A DNA stretch of 38,162 nucleotides, from NCBI GenBank assembly GCA_947581795.1, contig CANPVS010000020.1, forward strand, positions 1-38,162, read 5' to 3'. The notes under the pieces are model-generated. The model saw only the letters and a list, made by a program, of their open reading frames with translations. It was not told where the DNA came from and did not search any database. The position numbers were made by a program, and so were the translations under genes. Position 1 is the stretch's first letter. Every line of letters starts with the position of its first letter. Positions 16,753 to 26,420 of the stretch are shown here, one piece after another. The DNA comes from an uncultured Oscillospiraceae bacterium. GTDB taxonomy: Bacteria > Bacillota > Clostridia > Oscillospirales > Oscillospiraceae.

Positions 16753-17535
16753 ATGACCGTTGTCATCAAGATAGGCACATCCACCATCGCCCACGCAACA
16801 GGGCACCTGAACATCCGCCACATGGAGTCGCTGGTAAAGGTGATCAGCGACCTGAAAAACGCCGGTCACAAGATCGTTCTTGTGTCCTCCGGCGCCATCG
16901 GCATGGGCGTGGGGAAGCTGGGGCTGCCCGGACGGCCGGAGGACATGCCCGGCAAGCAGGCGGCCGCCGCCGTGGGCCAGTGCGAGCTCATGTACATATA
17001 CGACAAGCTGTTTTCCGAGTACAACCACGTGGTGGCTCAGGTGCTCCTTACCGGCAGCGACGTGGAGAACGACCACCGGCGGGGAAATTTTGAGAACACC
17101 ATGTCCCGGCTCCTGGAGCTGGGCGCCCTGCCCATCATCAACGAAAACGACACCGTTGCCACCGAGGAGATAACCGTGGGCGACAACGACACCCTGGGCG
17201 CTATCGTGGCCTGCGCCATCAAGGCGGACCTGCTGGTGCTTTTGAGCGACATCGAAGGGCTCTACACCGCCGACCCCCGCCATGACCCCGCCGCCCGGCT
17301 CATCCCCGTGGTGGAGACCATCACCCCGGAGATCGAGGCGCTGGCGGGCGAGAAGGGGAGCGGCCTCGCCGTGGGCGGCATGGCCACCAAGCTGAAGGCC
17401 GCGAAAATGGCTGTCGCCCAGGGCATTGATATGGTCATCGCCAACGGGGCGGAACCGGAACTTTTGTATGACATCCTGGAGGGGAAAGCCGTGGGGACGC
17501 GGTTTCTCGGCCAGGGAAAGGAGAAGCGGAAATGA
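16753..17535 (+). CDS. proB: Glutamate 5-kinase
   Basis: A 260-residue amino-acid kinase that phosphorylates glutamate in the first step of proline synthesis. It has 'VIKIGTSTI', '[17 protein letters not shown]', '[10 protein letters not shown]', '[11 protein letters not shown]', '[14 protein letters not shown]' and '[13 protein letters not shown]'. It lacks the C-terminal PUA domain of the 367-residue E. coli enzyme; this short form is common in Firmicutes. It overlaps proA by four bases (ATGA). Confidence 0.96.
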
Positions 17536-18788
17536 CGACCCATGAGATGCTTTTGAAGGCCCAGACGGCGAAGCCGGCTCTGACCCGCGCGGGGGAGCAG
17601 GGCAGGACAAAGGCGCTGCTGGCCATGGCGGACAGCCTTTTAAAACATACGGACGACATCCTGGCCGCCAACGCGGAGGATATGGCGGCGGCCAAAGGCA
17701 CCATGTCCGACGTGATGCTGGACCGGCTCATGCTGAACGCAGACCGTATCGCCGGTATGGCCCAGGGCGTCCGGGACGCGGCGGCCCTGCCGGACCCGGT
17801 GGGGAAGGTGCTGCGCCATGTGGAGCGGCCCAACGGCCTCGTCATTGAGCGGGTGAGCGTGCCCCTGGGCGTGGTGGCCATCATCTACGAGAGCCGGCCC
17901 AACGTGACCAGCGACGCGGCGGCCCTGGCCGTAAAGAGCGGCAACGTGTGCATCCTCCGGGGCGGCCGGGAGGCCTGGCGCAGCTGTCATGCCATCACCG
18001 AAGCCCTGCGGGAGGGCCTGGAGGCGGCGGGTCTGCCCAGGGAGACGGTGAGCCTGGTGGAGGATACCTCCCGGGCCAGCGCCACCGAGCTCATGACCGC
18101 GTCGGGGCTCATTGACCTGCTGATCCCCCGGGGCGGGGCGGGCCTCATCCGGGCCTGCGTGGAGAACGCCACCGTGCCCTGCATCCAGACAGGCACCGGG
18201 ATATGCCACATATACGTGGACAAGGCGGCGGACCTTTCCAAGGCCCTGGACATCATCGAAAACGCCAAGACCAGCCGGCCCAGCGTCTGCAACGCCGAGG
18301 AGGTGCTGCTGGTCCACGAGGCTGTGGCGGAAAAGTTCCTGCCTATGCTCAAAAAGCGGCTGGTGGACGACCGCGAGGCGGCGGGAAAGCCCCCTGTGGA
18401 GCTGCGCCTGGACAAGGACGCGGCGGCCATCATCCCCGGCACGAGAGCGGGAGAGGGGGACTTCGACAGGGAGTTCCTCGACTACATCCTGGCCGTGGCG
18501 GTGGTAAAGGACGTATCCGCGGCCATTGGCCACATCGCCGCCCACTCCACCGGCCACTCGGACGCCATCCTCACGGAGGACGAGACCGCCGCGGCGCTCT
18601 TCACGGAGGCGGTGGACAGCGCGGCGGTATATGTGAACGCCTCCACCCGGTTCACCGACGGCGGGGAGTTTGGTCTGGGCTGCGAGATGGGCATCTCCAC
18701 CCAGAAGCTCCACGCCCGGGGCCCCATGGGCCTGGAGGAGCTGTGCTCCTATAAGTACGTCATCCGCGGCAGCGGACAAGTGAGATAG
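17532..18788 (+). CDS. proA: Glutamate-5-semialdehyde dehydrogenase (gamma-glutamyl phosphate reductase)
   Basis: A 418-residue NADPH-dependent enzyme that reduces glutamyl 5-phosphate in proline synthesis. Signature '[19 protein letters not shown]' (core 'YESRPNVT'), '[10 protein letters not shown]', and the catalytic Cys253 in '[13 protein letters not shown]' are all present; it ends '[12 protein letters not shown]...[12 protein letters not shown]', as usual. Its TAG stop shares its last two bases with the start of the structured repeat at 18787. No standard terminator follows; the repeat forms the 3' untranslated region. Confidence 0.97.
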
Positions 18789-18968
18789 CCTCGCAGAGTT
18801 CGCGCCCGCAGGTGCGAAAAAAGTGGGATGTTTTTTCCGGGGGCGTGTACCTCGGAAAAAACTCTTATCGGCCCGCAAACGTGAACGCCCCCATCCATCG
18901 GATGGGGGCGCTTTGCGCTGCAGCGGGCCGCAGCCTTCTCGTTTGAAAGGGTCTCCCTTTCAAACGAC
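18787..18968 (+). repeat. Structured dispersed repeat, copy 1
   Basis: This 182-base element shares long blocks with 25040-25205. It folds into four consecutive hairpins: A, 18799-18806/18811-18818; B, 12 pairs, 18831-18842/18850-18861; C, outer stem 18869-18876/18923-18930 enclosing an 11-bp stem 18886-18896/18900-18910; D, 12 bp, 18940-18951/18955-18966 with loop TCT. Compared with copy 2, stems A, B and C change bases on both sides and stay paired, while D is identical. Two pairs (18804/18813, 18840/18852) are G-T on the plus strand and would be C-A mismatches on the minus strand, so the RNA is most likely the plus strand. It fills the whole gap between proA and a convergent coat gene. Confidence 0.85.
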
Positions 18969-18969
18969 A

Positions 18970-19218
18970 TCAGCAGGTGGGACTGTACTTCTGTTTCGTC
19001 TGCTGGACCTGCTGCTGGGGGGCGTTGTCGGTCTGGTACCAGCCCTTGGAGGTCATCTGCTTGTAGATGTTGTCCTGCATGTTCAGGGTGTCGTCGAAGG
19101 CGCTGGAGAAGGCCTGGTGGATGTTGGCGGTGCTGGATTCGATGGCGCCGTGCATATACAGGTCGATGACGCCCTTGGTGGTGAGGAGAAGGTTCTCCAT
19201 GATGCATTTGTCGTCCAT
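18970..19218 (-). CDS. CotF-like spore coat protein
   Basis: An 82-residue protein, 'MDDKCIMENLLLTTKGVIDLYMHG', followed by 'SSTANIHQAFSSAFDDTLNMQDNIYKQM' and 'KGWYQTDNAPQQQVQQ' (each only part of the helical pair). This is the pattern of the CotF/ferritin-like coat family of clostridia: 'ENLLLTTKG', 'HGAIES', 'M...GWY...'. Such proteins sit in the spore coat; their exact role is unknown. Start at 19218 by homology and by AAGGAGC upstream; the frame is open further upstream but there overlaps the next small gene in another frame. Its stop is one base from the structured repeat. Confidence 0.85.
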   Translation of the reverse strand: MDDKCIMENLLLTTKGVIDLYMHGAIESSTANIHQAFSSAFDDTLNMQDNIYKQMTSKGWYQTDNAPQQQVQQTKQKYSPTC

Positions 19219-19229
19219 TTTTGCGCTCC

Positions 19230-19403
19230 TTACACGAGATCGTAGAATTTGCGGTAGACCTGGCGGTGGCGGTCGGCCATCTGCTGCGCCTGCTGCTTGA
19301 GCGTGGCGTCCTGCAGCTTGGCGGCCGCGTCCTCGCACTGGGTCACCAGAAACATGGCGTGGCCCAGGGCGTCGTCTACATAGAGAAGTTCTTTCGTTGT
19401 CAT
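19230..19403 (-). CDS. Small coat-associated helical protein (57 residues)
   Basis: A short minus-strand gene starting 'MTTKELLYVDDALGHAMFL' and ending 'RQVYRKFYDLV'. It has a good GAGGTG box 8 bases upstream, and its TAA stop is part of the ribosome binding site (TAAGGAG) of the CotF-like gene, so the two are coupled. The sequence is helical, with 'LKQQAQQMADRHRQVY' resembling the second half of CotF/ferritin-like helices. It probably pairs with the next product. It is likely to be missed by length cut-offs, but start site, coupling and composition support it. Confidence 0.8.
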   Translation of the reverse strand: MTTKELLYVDDALGHAMFLVTQCEDAAAKLQDATLKQQAQQMADRHRQVYRKFYDLV

Positions 19404-19423
19404 TATTGATCACCTCATAGTAA

Positions 19424-19438
19424 GTATTTCCTAAATAC
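19424..19438. promoter_or_regulatory. Palindrome upstream of the coat genes
   Basis: GTATTT-CCT-AAATAC is a 15-base palindrome 21 bases before the start of the 57-residue gene and 144 bases before the divergent lysR gene. It could be an operator for that regulator (LysR sites are often interrupted palindromes), but this is a guess. Confidence 0.35.
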
Positions 19439-19492
19439 GGCGTTCTATGAGCCAAGGAACATAAGATTTTTTATGAAAAAGTGAAAAACTAC

Positions 19493-20571: not shown

Positions 20572-20648
20572 GGCGGCGTAGCTCAGTTGGCTAGAGCATG
20601 CGGTTCATACCCGCAGTGTCACCGGTTCGAATCCAGTCGCCGCTACCA
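20572..20648 (+). tRNA. tRNA-Met (CAT)
   Basis: 77 bases with encoded CCA. Acceptor GGCGGCG pairs with CGCCGCT (first pair G-T); D loop 'AGCTCAGTTGGCTAGAGC'; anticodon loop TTCATAC; T arm with GGTTCGAATCC. The acceptor, D arm and anticodon stem fit elongator tRNA-Met better than initiator tRNA or the CAT-reading tRNA-Ile. Confidence 0.93.
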
Positions 20649-20677
20649 TGGGAGTGGCCCCGCCTCTCCCGTTCTAT

Positions 20678-20754
20678 GGAGGCTTAGCTCAGCAGGTTAG
20701 AGCGCATGCTTCACACGCATGAGGTCGCGCGTTCGAGTCGCGCAGTCTCCACCA
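20678..20754 (+). tRNA. tRNA-Val (CAC)
   Basis: 77 bases with encoded CCA. Acceptor GGAGGCT/AGTCTCC; anticodon stem CATGC/GCATG around loop TTCACAC, giving anticodon CAC for GTG codons; T arm GCGCG-TTCGAGT-CGCGC. Thirty bases after tRNA-Met. Confidence 0.93.
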
Positions 20755-20761
20755 TTTTTTT

Positions 20762-20836
20762 GGCCCGTTGGTCAAGTGGTTAAGACACCGCCCTTTCACG
20801 GCGGTAACATGGGTTCGAGTCCCGTACGGGTCACCA
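20762..20836 (+). tRNA. tRNA-Glu (TTC)
   Basis: 75 bases with encoded CCA. Acceptor GGCCCGT/ACGGGTC with the discriminator A; anticodon stem CCGCC/GGCGG around loop CTTTCAC, anticodon TTC. It begins seven bases after tRNA-Val. It is the last gene before an AT-rich islet. Confidence 0.95.
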
Positions 20837-24466: not shown

Positions 24467-25036
24467 TCATGGAAAGGTCTCCGGCGCGTCCACGCCCACC
24501 ACGTGCCGGAGGATATTGGCGGGGAAGGCGCCCAGCACCTCGTCCCGGAAGGCCAGGATGTGGCTGCTGTAGGCGCTGCTGTCCAGCTCGGACTGGGCGC
24601 TGTGGAAGTCGGAGAGGATGGCGTCATAGTCGTCGTGGCTCTCCGGCAGGGCTGCGCCGGACGCTTTGACCGCCTCCACCTGGGCCACTGCCTCCGCCAG
24701 GGCCTGATTGGCCTGGGCGATAGCGGAGATGTCCCTGGCGGCGAGGGCGTCGTCCAGGGCCACACGGGCCGTGTTCACGGCCTGGTAAGCCTCCGCCCAT
24801 TCGCCGTCTGTGCCGATGACGGACAGCAGCCGGGTGGACAGGGCCACGCAGTTTTCCAGGTGGTCCGCCGGGGCGGACCAGCCGCCGTCCTCCTTGAGAA
24901 GGCTCCGGTCAAAGAAGGCCTCCTCCGCGTCCCGGCATGCCTTGTTCAGGCTCCGCTTGCAGCCCAGGAAAGAAAACAGGACTACCACGACTACAAATAC
25001 AACGATGGCTGTAGAACGTCTTTTAAAGATACTCAT
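24467..25036 (-). CDS. LemA-like membrane-anchored protein
   Basis: A 189-residue protein with a short basic N-terminus, one membrane helix (about 10-25) and helical repeats. The end, 'ILAFRDEVLGAFPANILRHVVGVD', and the 'HDDYDAILSDFHSAQ' helix fit the LemA family, although the N-terminal 'LV..RN.....L' motif is degenerate. The 'FLGC' at the end of the helix could serve as a lipobox. It is followed 9 bases on by the TPM gene. The ATG at 25036 is only 4 bases from the structured repeat; the GAGG that serves as ribosome binding site belongs to the repeat's minus strand. Confidence 0.75.
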   Translation of the reverse strand: MSIFKRRSTAIVVFVVVVVLFSFLGCKRSLNKACRDAEEAFFDRSLLKEDGGWSAPADHLENCVALSTRLLSVIGTDGEWAEAYQAVNTARVALDDALAARDISAIAQANQALAEAVAQVEAVKASGAALPESHDDYDAILSDFHSAQSELDSSAYSSHILAFRDEVLGAFPANILRHVVGVDAPETFP

Positions 25037-25039
25037 AAA

Positions 25040-25205
25040 AGCCTCGCAGAGTTCGCCGCCGGAGCGGCGAATAAAGTGGGATGATTTTTCCGGGGGCGTG
25101 TACCTCGGAAAAATCTCTTATCGGCTCACGAAGTGTGCGAGCGCAGCGAGTGCGCGTATGTGAGCCGCAGCCTTCTCGTTTGAAAGGGTCTCCCTTTCAA
25201 ACGAC
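25040..25205 (+). repeat. Structured dispersed repeat, copy 2
   Basis: A 166-base element matching copy 1 at 18787-18968 in blocks. Hairpins: A, 25052-25059/25064-25071, perfect; B, 25084-25095/25103-25114, with an A-T outer pair where copy 1 has T-A; C, 25122-25129/25160-25167, with two pairs replaced (C-G to T-A, G-C to A-T) and a different inner part; D, 25177-25188/25192-25203, identical. Its RNA strand (plus, by G-T pairs in B and in copy 1) is opposite to the flanking telA and lemA-like genes, so it is not simply their untranslated region. It ends exactly at the telA stop codon. Confidence 0.85.
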
Positions 25206-26420
25206 TTATCCGCGCATGTCCAGCAGCTTCTGCTTCAGCTCGCCTTCGATGCGGCCAAGCTCCACCTCGGCCTGGGCCCGGCGGGCACGGCCGTCGTCCT
25301 GGATCTTGCGCACATCCTCCAGGGTCTGGATGAGCTCCTTGTTGGTCTCCTGCAGGGTCTCCAGGTCCACGATGCCCCGCTCGGCCTCCTGGGCCACGCC
25401 CACGGACCCGGTGTGCAGGGCGGCGGCGTTCTTGCGCAGCAGCTCGTTGGTGACTTCACTGACCTCATGGGTGGCCTCCATGGCCTGCTGGGAGTTGTAC
25501 ATACTCAGGGCCAGGACCATCTGGCTCTTCCACAGGGGGATGGTGTTGTCGATGGCGGTCTGGATCTTCTCAACCATGAGGGAGTCGTTGTTCTGGATAA
25601 GGCGGATCTGGGGGCTCATCTGGATGGAGATCATCCGGGTCAGCTCCAGGTCGTGGATCTTCTTCTCGAAGCGGCCCAGCATGGAGGCGTAGTCGTTGGC
25701 GGCCTGGGCGTCCTCGGGGGCTCCGGTCTCGGCGGCCTTCTTCTGCAGGGCGGGCAGCTCCGTGGCCTTCAGCTCCTCCAGGCGGAGCTTGCCGGCGATG
25801 ATATACATGGTCAGCTCCTTGAAGTACGCCTGGTTCATCTCGTACATGTTGTCCATGGTGACGATGTCTTTGTTCAGGGTGATCCAGTGCTGGTTGAGGG
25901 CCTCGGTGATCTTGTTCACGTTGACCTCGGCCTTGTCGTACTTCACCTTCATGTCGGAAAAGCTACGGGCGGCCTTCTTGAAGAGGCCTTTGAGGCCCTT
26001 GGGCTGTTCCGTGGATACATCCAGGCCGTTCAGCTCGCCCACCAGGTCGGAGAGCATATCGCCCACCTCGCCCAGGTCCTTGGTGCGGACCTGCTCCAGC
26101 GCCTGAGCGGAGAAATCGGCGATGTTCTTCTGGGCGGCGGAGCCGTAGGAAAGCACCTGGGCGGAGTTGGTCACGTCGATCTTCTTGGCGAACTCCCGGA
26201 CGGCGGCCTGCTCCTCGGGGGCCAGGTCGTTGATGTCCAGCTTTTCCACGGGGGCCTCCGCCTCGGCCTGGTTGGCAACGGCTTCGGCGGCGGGAGCGGT
26301 CTGCACGGCGGCAGCCGTAGCCGCAGGGGCGTCGGGGGCGGCAGTGGGGTCAGGCGCGGCGGGCGCCTCGGGGGTGGGATCCAGCGTCAGGTTGAACTCA
26401 TACTTTTTCTCGTCGGCCAT
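25206..26420 (-). CDS. telA: TelA/KlaA family protein
   Basis: A 404-residue protein of the TelA (toxic anion resistance) family. An alanine/proline-rich N-terminus (1-60) precedes a long helical, probably coiled-coil domain; 'LTRMISIQMSPQIRLIQNND' with 'VEKIQTAIDNTIPLWKSQM' forms the family core, and 'AVKYDKAEVNVNKITEAL'-like helices come before it. TelA proteins are linked to tellurite and antimicrobial tolerance, but the mechanism is unknown. No signal peptide or membrane helix. It follows xpaC on the same strand after 40 bases, the usual pairing in Firmicutes. Confidence 0.93.
   Translation of the reverse strand: MADEKKYEFNLTLDPTPEAPAAPDPTAAPDAPAATAAAVQTAPAAEAVANQAEAEAPVEKLDINDLAPEEQAAVREFAKKIDVTNSAQVLSYGSAAQKNIADFSAQALEQVRTKDLGEVGDMLSDLVGELNGLDVSTEQPKGLKGLFKKAARSFSDMKVKYDKAEVNVNKITEALNQHWITLNKDIVTMDNMYEMNQAYFKELTMYIIAGKLRLEELKATELPALQKKAAETGAPEDAQAANDYASMLGRFEKKIHDLELTRMISIQMSPQIRLIQNNDSLMVEKIQTAIDNTIPLWKSQMVLALSMYNSQQAMEATHEVSEVTNELLRKNAAALHTGSVGVAQEAERGIVDLETLQETNKELIQTLEDVRKIQDDGRARRAQAEVELGRIEGELKQKLLDMRG

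Follow-up and report, generated by a model that had tools for sequence, protein, structure and literature searches.

A scattered four-hairpin repeat in an Oscillospiraceae genus has two forms that match gene arrangement, suggesting use as a gene-end signal

A structured intergenic repeat of ~165–182 nt occurs in two forms that match the arrangement of the neighboring genes in its genus, and this pattern suggests that a scattered repeat has been recruited as a gene-end signal. The window, by which we mean the whole stretch of DNA analyzed (38,162 nt of contig CANPVS010000020.1, assembly GCA_947581795.1, from an uncultured Oscillospiraceae bacterium; all coordinates are on the forward strand), holds one copy of each form: copy 1 has a terminator-like (T) tip on hairpin C and is flanked by a ProA-like and a Coat F gene, and copy 2 has a short (N) tip and lies between telA and the next gene. 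Our preferred reading, which we consider probable but hold with reserve, is that a probably mobile repeat has been domesticated in this genus as a 3′-end module with T and N forms and a GAGG end. Under this model, a dispersed, nonautonomous intergenic repeat, probably mobile, of gut bacteria in the order around Oscillospiraceae would work in this genus as an exchangeable mRNA 3′-end module. Hairpin D, directly after the upstream stop codon, would form the 3′ end of a stable message; the T form of hairpin C would end transcription between convergent genes in place of the host terminator; the N form would let the transcript run on into the next codirectional gene; and the A-end GAGG would act as a ribosome-binding site if that gene begins within a few bases. 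A bolder version, which we entertain only tentatively, is that the repeat is a genome-wide gene-end cassette that replaces host terminators, with terminating and read-through isoforms matched to gene arrangement and whole stems swapped by conversion or hairpin-templated copying. The features of the two copies and their neighbors are as follows:

18788–18968, minus strand (inferred sense strand): copy 1, T form, between two convergent genes.
18788–18798: conserved A end, GCCTCGCAGAG, unpaired; its first G is the last base of the TAG stop codon of the plus-strand gene at 17532–18788.
18799–18818: hairpin A of copy 1, 8 bp, with a variable stem and strong covariation.
18830–18862: hairpin B of copy 1, 13 bp with a 7-nt loop and strong covariation.
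18869–18930: hairpin C of copy 1, with the outer stem CGGCCCGC/GCGGGCCG.
18884–18913, minus strand: T-form tip of hairpin C in copy 1, 30 nt, with an 11-bp GC-rich stem (18886–18896/18900–18910) and an interrupted T tract on either strand.
18939–18967: hairpin D of copy 1, perfectly palindromic; the minus-strand Coat F gene (18970–19455) has its stop codon 2 nt away.
25041–25205, minus strand: copy 2, N form, between telA (25206–26420, minus strand) and a codirectional gene at 24467–25036 (minus strand).
25042–25045, minus strand: GAGG in the A end of copy 2, 5 nt ahead of the ATG at 25036, a candidate Shine–Dalgarno sequence.
25052–25071: hairpin A of copy 2.
25083–25115: hairpin B of copy 2.
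25122–25167: hairpin C of copy 2, with a 13-nt N-form tip at 25138–25150.
25176–25204: hairpin D of copy 2, the same sequence as hairpin D of copy 1.
17532–18788, plus strand: neighbor of copy 1, an Aldedh-family gene that we take to be ProA-like, convergent with the Coat F gene.
25206–26420, minus strand: neighbor of copy 2, a TelA-family gene whose stop codon abuts copy 2.

An earlier, sequence-only reading of the window had paired these two copies through shared blocks and through differences that preserve base pairing. An unguided repeat search recovered the same blocks (18787–18879 with 25040–25132, 88%; 18914–18968 with 25151–25205, 89%), and each of the listed changes is present: 18804/18813 (G-T to C-G) and 18805/18812 (C-G to G-C) in hairpin A, the outer pair of hairpin B (T-A to A-T), and 18873/18926 (C-G to T-A) and 18875/18924 (G-C to A-T) in hairpin C. 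Hairpin D is likewise identical in the two copies (18939–18967 and 25176–25204). Both copies fold into four hairpins in the same order as claimed, except that the inner part of hairpin C differs, with a 30-nt terminator-like tip in one copy and a 13-nt tip in the other. Folding was stronger than in dinucleotide shuffles on the plus strand (150-nt pieces, z −6.3 and −4.0; 0 of 200 shuffles as good) and on the minus strand (136- and 146-nt pieces, z −7.0 and −5.3), the stretches folded on the two strands being different in extent.

We used a covariance model of hairpins A and B (R1, 95 positions), built from 10 copies, and the search proposed by that reading returned many copies in which pairing is kept through two-sided changes. 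In nine copies of this genome, aligned without reference to structure, 18 of 53 consensus pairs show a kept double change in at least one copy. A genus-wide alignment was assembled from 102 R1 matches, giving 97 distinct rows, three of which are incomplete or weak. In these rows hairpin A is 99.7% paired, hairpin B 99.5%, and the whole modeled structure 96.8%, falling to 38–51% when one arm is slid by 1–3 columns; two-sided changes occur at 14 of 26 modeled pairs, and the covariation score is 0.333 versus 0.101 in shuffles. This alignment was fitted to the model and is hence biased toward it, but the unfitted nine-copy alignment agrees. An extra outer helix around hairpin A predicted by RNAfold (columns 3–7 with 36–40) was rejected, being 85% paired with zero double changes. 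Separately, the loop of hairpin B in several genera is mostly GGCGTGTAC or GACATG(T/C)GC, with positions 2 and 8 switching jointly between G,A and A,G, which suggests a noncanonical pair or a binding site. In three genomes, G220 (loci L337–L346), G250, and G268, many copies have a further hairpin, GCGTGTCGA...TCGACACGC, after hairpin D, as if it were a lineage-specific fifth part of the element.

The manner in which the stems change limits what the covariation can be taken to count. By eye, the stems occur as a limited set of discrete alleles, and the pair table for hairpins A and B contains 300 two-sided cells, 9 one-sided cells (3 at one fixed G-U pair), and 8 unpaired cells, where cells are sequences rather than events. 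At the telA site, aligning the element of the window genome with that of genome G014 (164 bases) gives 21 differences and one gap, confined to hairpins A and C, with hairpins B and D identical. The element is 87.2% identical and its flanks 94.9% and 91.9%, so that the element is only somewhat more diverged, which counts against the preferred reading. Because one-sided intermediates are nearly absent, whole stems appear, from the aligned sequences, to have been swapped between copies rather than evolved pair by pair at each site, and the number of compensatory changes is therefore no count of independent events. The original argument that at least five such changes point to selection on, or descent of, a folded molecule holds for the pairs themselves and for a dispersed folded element. 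Wholesale stem changes that are almost never one-sided would also be expected of a single-stranded DNA element of the REP/RAYT or IS200/IS605-like kind, in which stems are kept for a nuclease and arms renewed by hairpin-templated copying, as would the behavior of hairpin D, which has 56 different arms in the 89 copies measured, 57 of them perfect by a crude measure. We nevertheless regard this explanation as very unlikely: no match to Y1 transposase (PF01797) or reverse transcriptase (PF00078) was found in G042, the copy-richest genome (98% complete), or in G002, G011, and G015, although draft genomes such as these are incomplete. A Y1/RAYT enzyme or reverse transcriptase was accordingly rejected as the mobilizer, and a search limited to these two families found no linked transposase or autonomous parent.

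The element is present in many copies and in nearly all genomes of its genus. A DNA search of the draft genome to which the window belongs (2.29 Mb, 62 contigs, 84% complete) gave 26 matches, some of them weak or palindromic halves of the same copies, of which ten are full or nearly full; R1 gave 12 matches there, 10 strong and 2 weak. At E ≤ 0.01, R1 matches 36 of 60 relatives. Within the genus these are 34 of 35 genomes, the window's own included; the remaining two are one of the two further genomes sampled from this family (E 1e-4) and G042, which belongs to another family. Positive genomes hold from 1 to 70 matches, with 20–23 each in G002, G011, and G015 and 70 in G042 when it is searched by itself. 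In G042, loci L158, L170, and L168 each show two R1 matches close by, those in L158 lying on opposite strands and overlapping at their A ends. Across the order, 50 of 394 genomes and 24 of 169 genera match at E ≤ 1e-4, whereas across the phylum only 2 of 398 sampled genomes match at E ≤ 0.001 (ten candidates were scored per genome in both scans, and order-level copy counts are lower bounds). The model is therefore specific, since the two phylum-level matches are the window's own genome and another of the same family. No phage record matched at E ≤ 0.01, and one plasmid record did, a Vescimonas fastidiosa plasmid, at 13 places. Three of five pattern-matched viral contigs (IMG/VR) contain R1 matches; these putative viral contigs, L304, L305, and L307, carry element copies, with two in L307.

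We also considered that the element might be transcribed by itself as a regulatory or trans-acting structured RNA, such as a leader, riboswitch, or small RNA. The strong folding and covariation are in keeping with this, as is the recurrence across genera, judged by eye, of GCCTCGCAGAG, CTTCTCAG, and the loop of hairpin B. Set against it are the copy number, the outcome of a scan that found no sigma-70-like promoter site around either copy, and the lack of an Rfam match. As the sequence-only reading had supposed, the element matches no Rfam family; a gathering-threshold scan of the whole window returned three tRNAs only, which are consecutive genes on the plus strand at 20572–20833 (RF00005), and a search of four loci against Rfam 15 at E up to 1 gave nothing on the element and one chance miRNA match away from it. 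We therefore think a self-standing structured RNA highly improbable.

Position relative to genes is strongly constrained in the genus. Genes around the 102 genus copies, which come mostly from the top of the score list, were called with a home-made codon-model caller started from eight Pfam-supported window ORFs (ten scanned). In all 97 copies with genes called on both sides, the D-side gene reads into hairpin D; the A-side gene is convergent in 40 and codirectional in 57 (all in one orientation), and no copy is divergent. Since the A-side gene is convergent in 40 copies, the element cannot be that gene's leader. On the sense strand the order is thus stop codon, hairpins D, C, B, and A, followed by the start codon of the next gene or, where a gene faces the element, by that gene's 3′ end. 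Because D follows a gene on that strand in 97 of 97 copies, the sense strand of both window copies is the window's minus strand, and the functional RNA is probably minus-strand as well. The idea of a folded RNA element was sound in that the repeat is dispersed, multicopy, constrained in fold, and without an Rfam match; the strand first shown is probably not that of the functional RNA, and the two forms of hairpin C had been missed. Wobble pairs were discarded as a test of strand, as their hints conflict and rest on fixed pairs: a G-U pair that is fixed in hairpin B (91 of 94) favors the plus strand as RNA, and T tips read as plus strand give 41 A-C and 1 G-T cells, which favors the minus strand.

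The fixed orientation is confined to this genus, being less fixed in G042 and free in other genera. Among 50 G042 copies with both neighbors, 18 are convergent, 28 codirectional (21:7 between the two orientations), and 4 divergent; in other genera together with three viral-contig copies, 24 are convergent, 34 codirectional at 17:17, and 1 divergent. Even so, 46 of the 50 G042 copies and 58 of the 59 others lie downstream of at least one gene.

Evidence for the proposed module comes from the match between the tip of hairpin C and gene arrangement, which we scored within this genus. Tips were extracted from 96 of 102 genus copies (six could not be parsed) and classed as T or N by how they begin; a few extractions overran the tip. 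T tips either have GC-rich stems, mostly of ≥9 bp (CGCCCCCATCC/GGATGGGGGCG in the window), or carry tracts of A and T on each side, and N tips are ~12–18 nt. Where the A-side gene is convergent, we found 37 T, 1 N, and 1 other tip; where it is codirectional, 11 T, 40 N, and 6 other (Fisher p = 5e-14 per copy, T and N only). With one vote per site, taken as the majority with three ties settled by order, the counts were 28 T and 1 N at convergent sites and 8 T and 22 N at codirectional sites (p = 1.5e-8). All 17 copies at the eight convergent sites found in more than one genome are T, and in the sole convergent N copy (L238) the hairpin at D is, by eye, long and terminator-like. Exceptions to the match exist, because four codirectional sites carry T in one genome and N in another. 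Among codirectional copies, the distance to the next start codon has a median of 108 nt for T versus 28 nt for N (p = 0.037, with some gaps miscalled), as would be expected if the gene after a T copy owned a promoter.

Whether the T tip would be recognized as a terminator depends on the rule applied. A strict scan (5 T in 8) did not call the T tip of copy 1 on either strand, its T tract being interrupted. Under a looser rule, chosen after seeing the data, 42 of 48 T copies versus 5 of 39 N copies had a terminator site on the sense strand, and the same post hoc rule gave no separation on the other strand (46 of 48 T versus 33 of 39 N). In G042 and the other genera, each genome appears by eye to use few tip forms. 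A third kind of tip, seen at L047, L049, L062, L239, L273, and partly L236, is >100 nt where extracted and shares a block, approximately TGGGG(T/C)CCCC...GGGGAGAGGAGG, at several sites; it may represent a second element lying within the hairpin C tip.

Comparison of orthologous sites with and without the element indicates what becomes of the host terminator. After the ProA-like gene (11 loci printed), the window and L076 carry T elements with no trace of an ordinary hairpin, two relatives (L068, 95% amino acid identity, and L069, 88%) show a short gap that contains a terminator-like hairpin of the ordinary kind, and the remaining loci have different neighbors or no element. After rpmE (30 loci printed), two loci have full T elements and no ordinary terminator alongside, L407 has kept an ordinary terminator next to an element reduced to A joined to D (B and C deleted), and 27 have no element, the majority showing, by eye, a simple GC hairpin with a T run. 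The stretch downstream of the thiolase gene (28 loci printed) holds full T elements at two loci, with no other terminator in the 300 nt printed; L443 retains D and the T tip with A and B lost, and 25 lack the element. At this site, as at rpmE, most relatives have an ordinary terminator in its place. It thus seems that each convergent site compared retains a single terminator, either the host's or the element's. After telA (28 loci printed, from 31 positive genomes), six full elements are all N, two loci hold remnants, and 20 lack the end motif, several with gaps of 0–3 nt; among these 20, some are followed by a different gene and two may carry faint traces of the element. On the TelA tree, full, remnant, and empty sites are intermixed; the label test on this tree compared full and remnant rows only.

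These observations bear most directly on the possibility that the repeat is selfish and nothing else, inserting anywhere and left by purifying selection in harmless placements without any host function. On that account, a T copy before a codirectional gene would be polar and lost, and a reversed copy would lose its ribosome-binding site and likewise be lost. Free orientation in other genera, the change of class tolerated at the four codirectional sites mentioned above, and the existence of remnants and internal deletions all fit such an account. However, 28 of 29 classified convergent sites are T, though N would be harmless there if the host terminator had stayed, and at each of the three sites compared no host terminator accompanies the T elements. 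T at convergent sites and the missing host terminator therefore point to use, at least as a substitute, and we consider a purely selfish repeat unlikely, though the most serious of the alternatives.

The A end may contribute to the 3′-end module in a second way. Read on the sense strand it is GCGAGGC, which can supply a candidate Shine–Dalgarno GAGG to the next gene. Of the codirectional copies, 24 were called no more than 25 nt from a start codon (one being a miscalled overlap); in these, the best Shine–Dalgarno match is the element's GAGG at 4–9 nt in 12, lies in the flank in 9, and is lacking in 3. The telA ortholog at L224 has the same GAGG-to-start spacing as copy 2. For copy 2 itself, a start called at 24988 for the gene after telA (gap 52) was judged an artifact, and the ATG at 25036 agrees with related loci.

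We conclude from the empty sites and the copy number that the element is probably mobile; many copies at unrelated sites, together with empty orthologous sites in relatives, are what defines a dispersed intergenic structured repeat of the bcr1, ERIC, or BOX kind, and the element shows both. A comparison by eye of filled with empty sites, made for telA, rpmE, and the ProA-like gene, showed AT-rich flanks, often TA, and no constant target-site duplication. The ends of the element, (G)TCG.. at D and GCCTCGCAGAG at A, show no inverted match by eye.

Several known repeats invite comparison. The bcr1 repeat of the Bacillus cereus group is ~155 nt, has a conserved secondary structure, and is presumed mobile. 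It resembles the present element in size, structure, and presumed mobility, and differs in host lineage. BOX elements of Streptococcus pneumoniae are modular. Like SPRITE of the same species, they are dispersed intergenic repeats, as here, in a different host, and the likeness is one of description rather than sequence. SPRITE is described, in passages of a recent review, as a dispersed intergenic repeat resembling a rho-independent terminator (PMC10969869). Other passages of the same review report that, in Yersinia, ERIC repeats located 3′ of genes change the levels of transcripts and that QMITE2 lies mainly in 3′ untranslated regions (PMC10969869); both are intergenic repeats at gene 3′ ends, as here, but MITEs are defined by terminal inverted repeats, whereas our element has unlike ends and four separate hairpins. 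REP and BIME sequences are extragenic palindromes that are suspected of acting in termination and in the stability of mRNA (PMC3733652, PMC12306157). They are palindromic like the present element, but REPs are given as 20–40 bp (PMC3733652), and G042 yielded no RAYT-type gene. By analogy, the element would work most like ERIC, BOX/SPRITE, QMITE2, and bcr1. A text search of the literature with pieces of the A-end sequence matched only papers that are by title on unrelated subjects (lung cancer, antiviral response, diatom, pineapple, and Arabidopsis), and as far as our literature searches reach, the element is unreported in print.

Regulation by terminators inside dispersed repeats has been called conceivable, and a T/N pair matched to gene arrangement does not appear in the passages of the review that describe such repeats (PMC10969869); the pattern reported here is evidence for regulation of this kind. 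If our reading is true, the element is a clear case in which transcription termination for part of a bacterial genome has passed to a scattered repeat, whose form distinguishes, site by site, convergent gene ends from codirectional junctions. It also offers a direct, countable test of whether bacterial repeats act in mRNA 3′ ends. Finally, it adds a new structured family in little-studied gut bacteria, whose terminator-like tip could aid the annotation of transcript ends.
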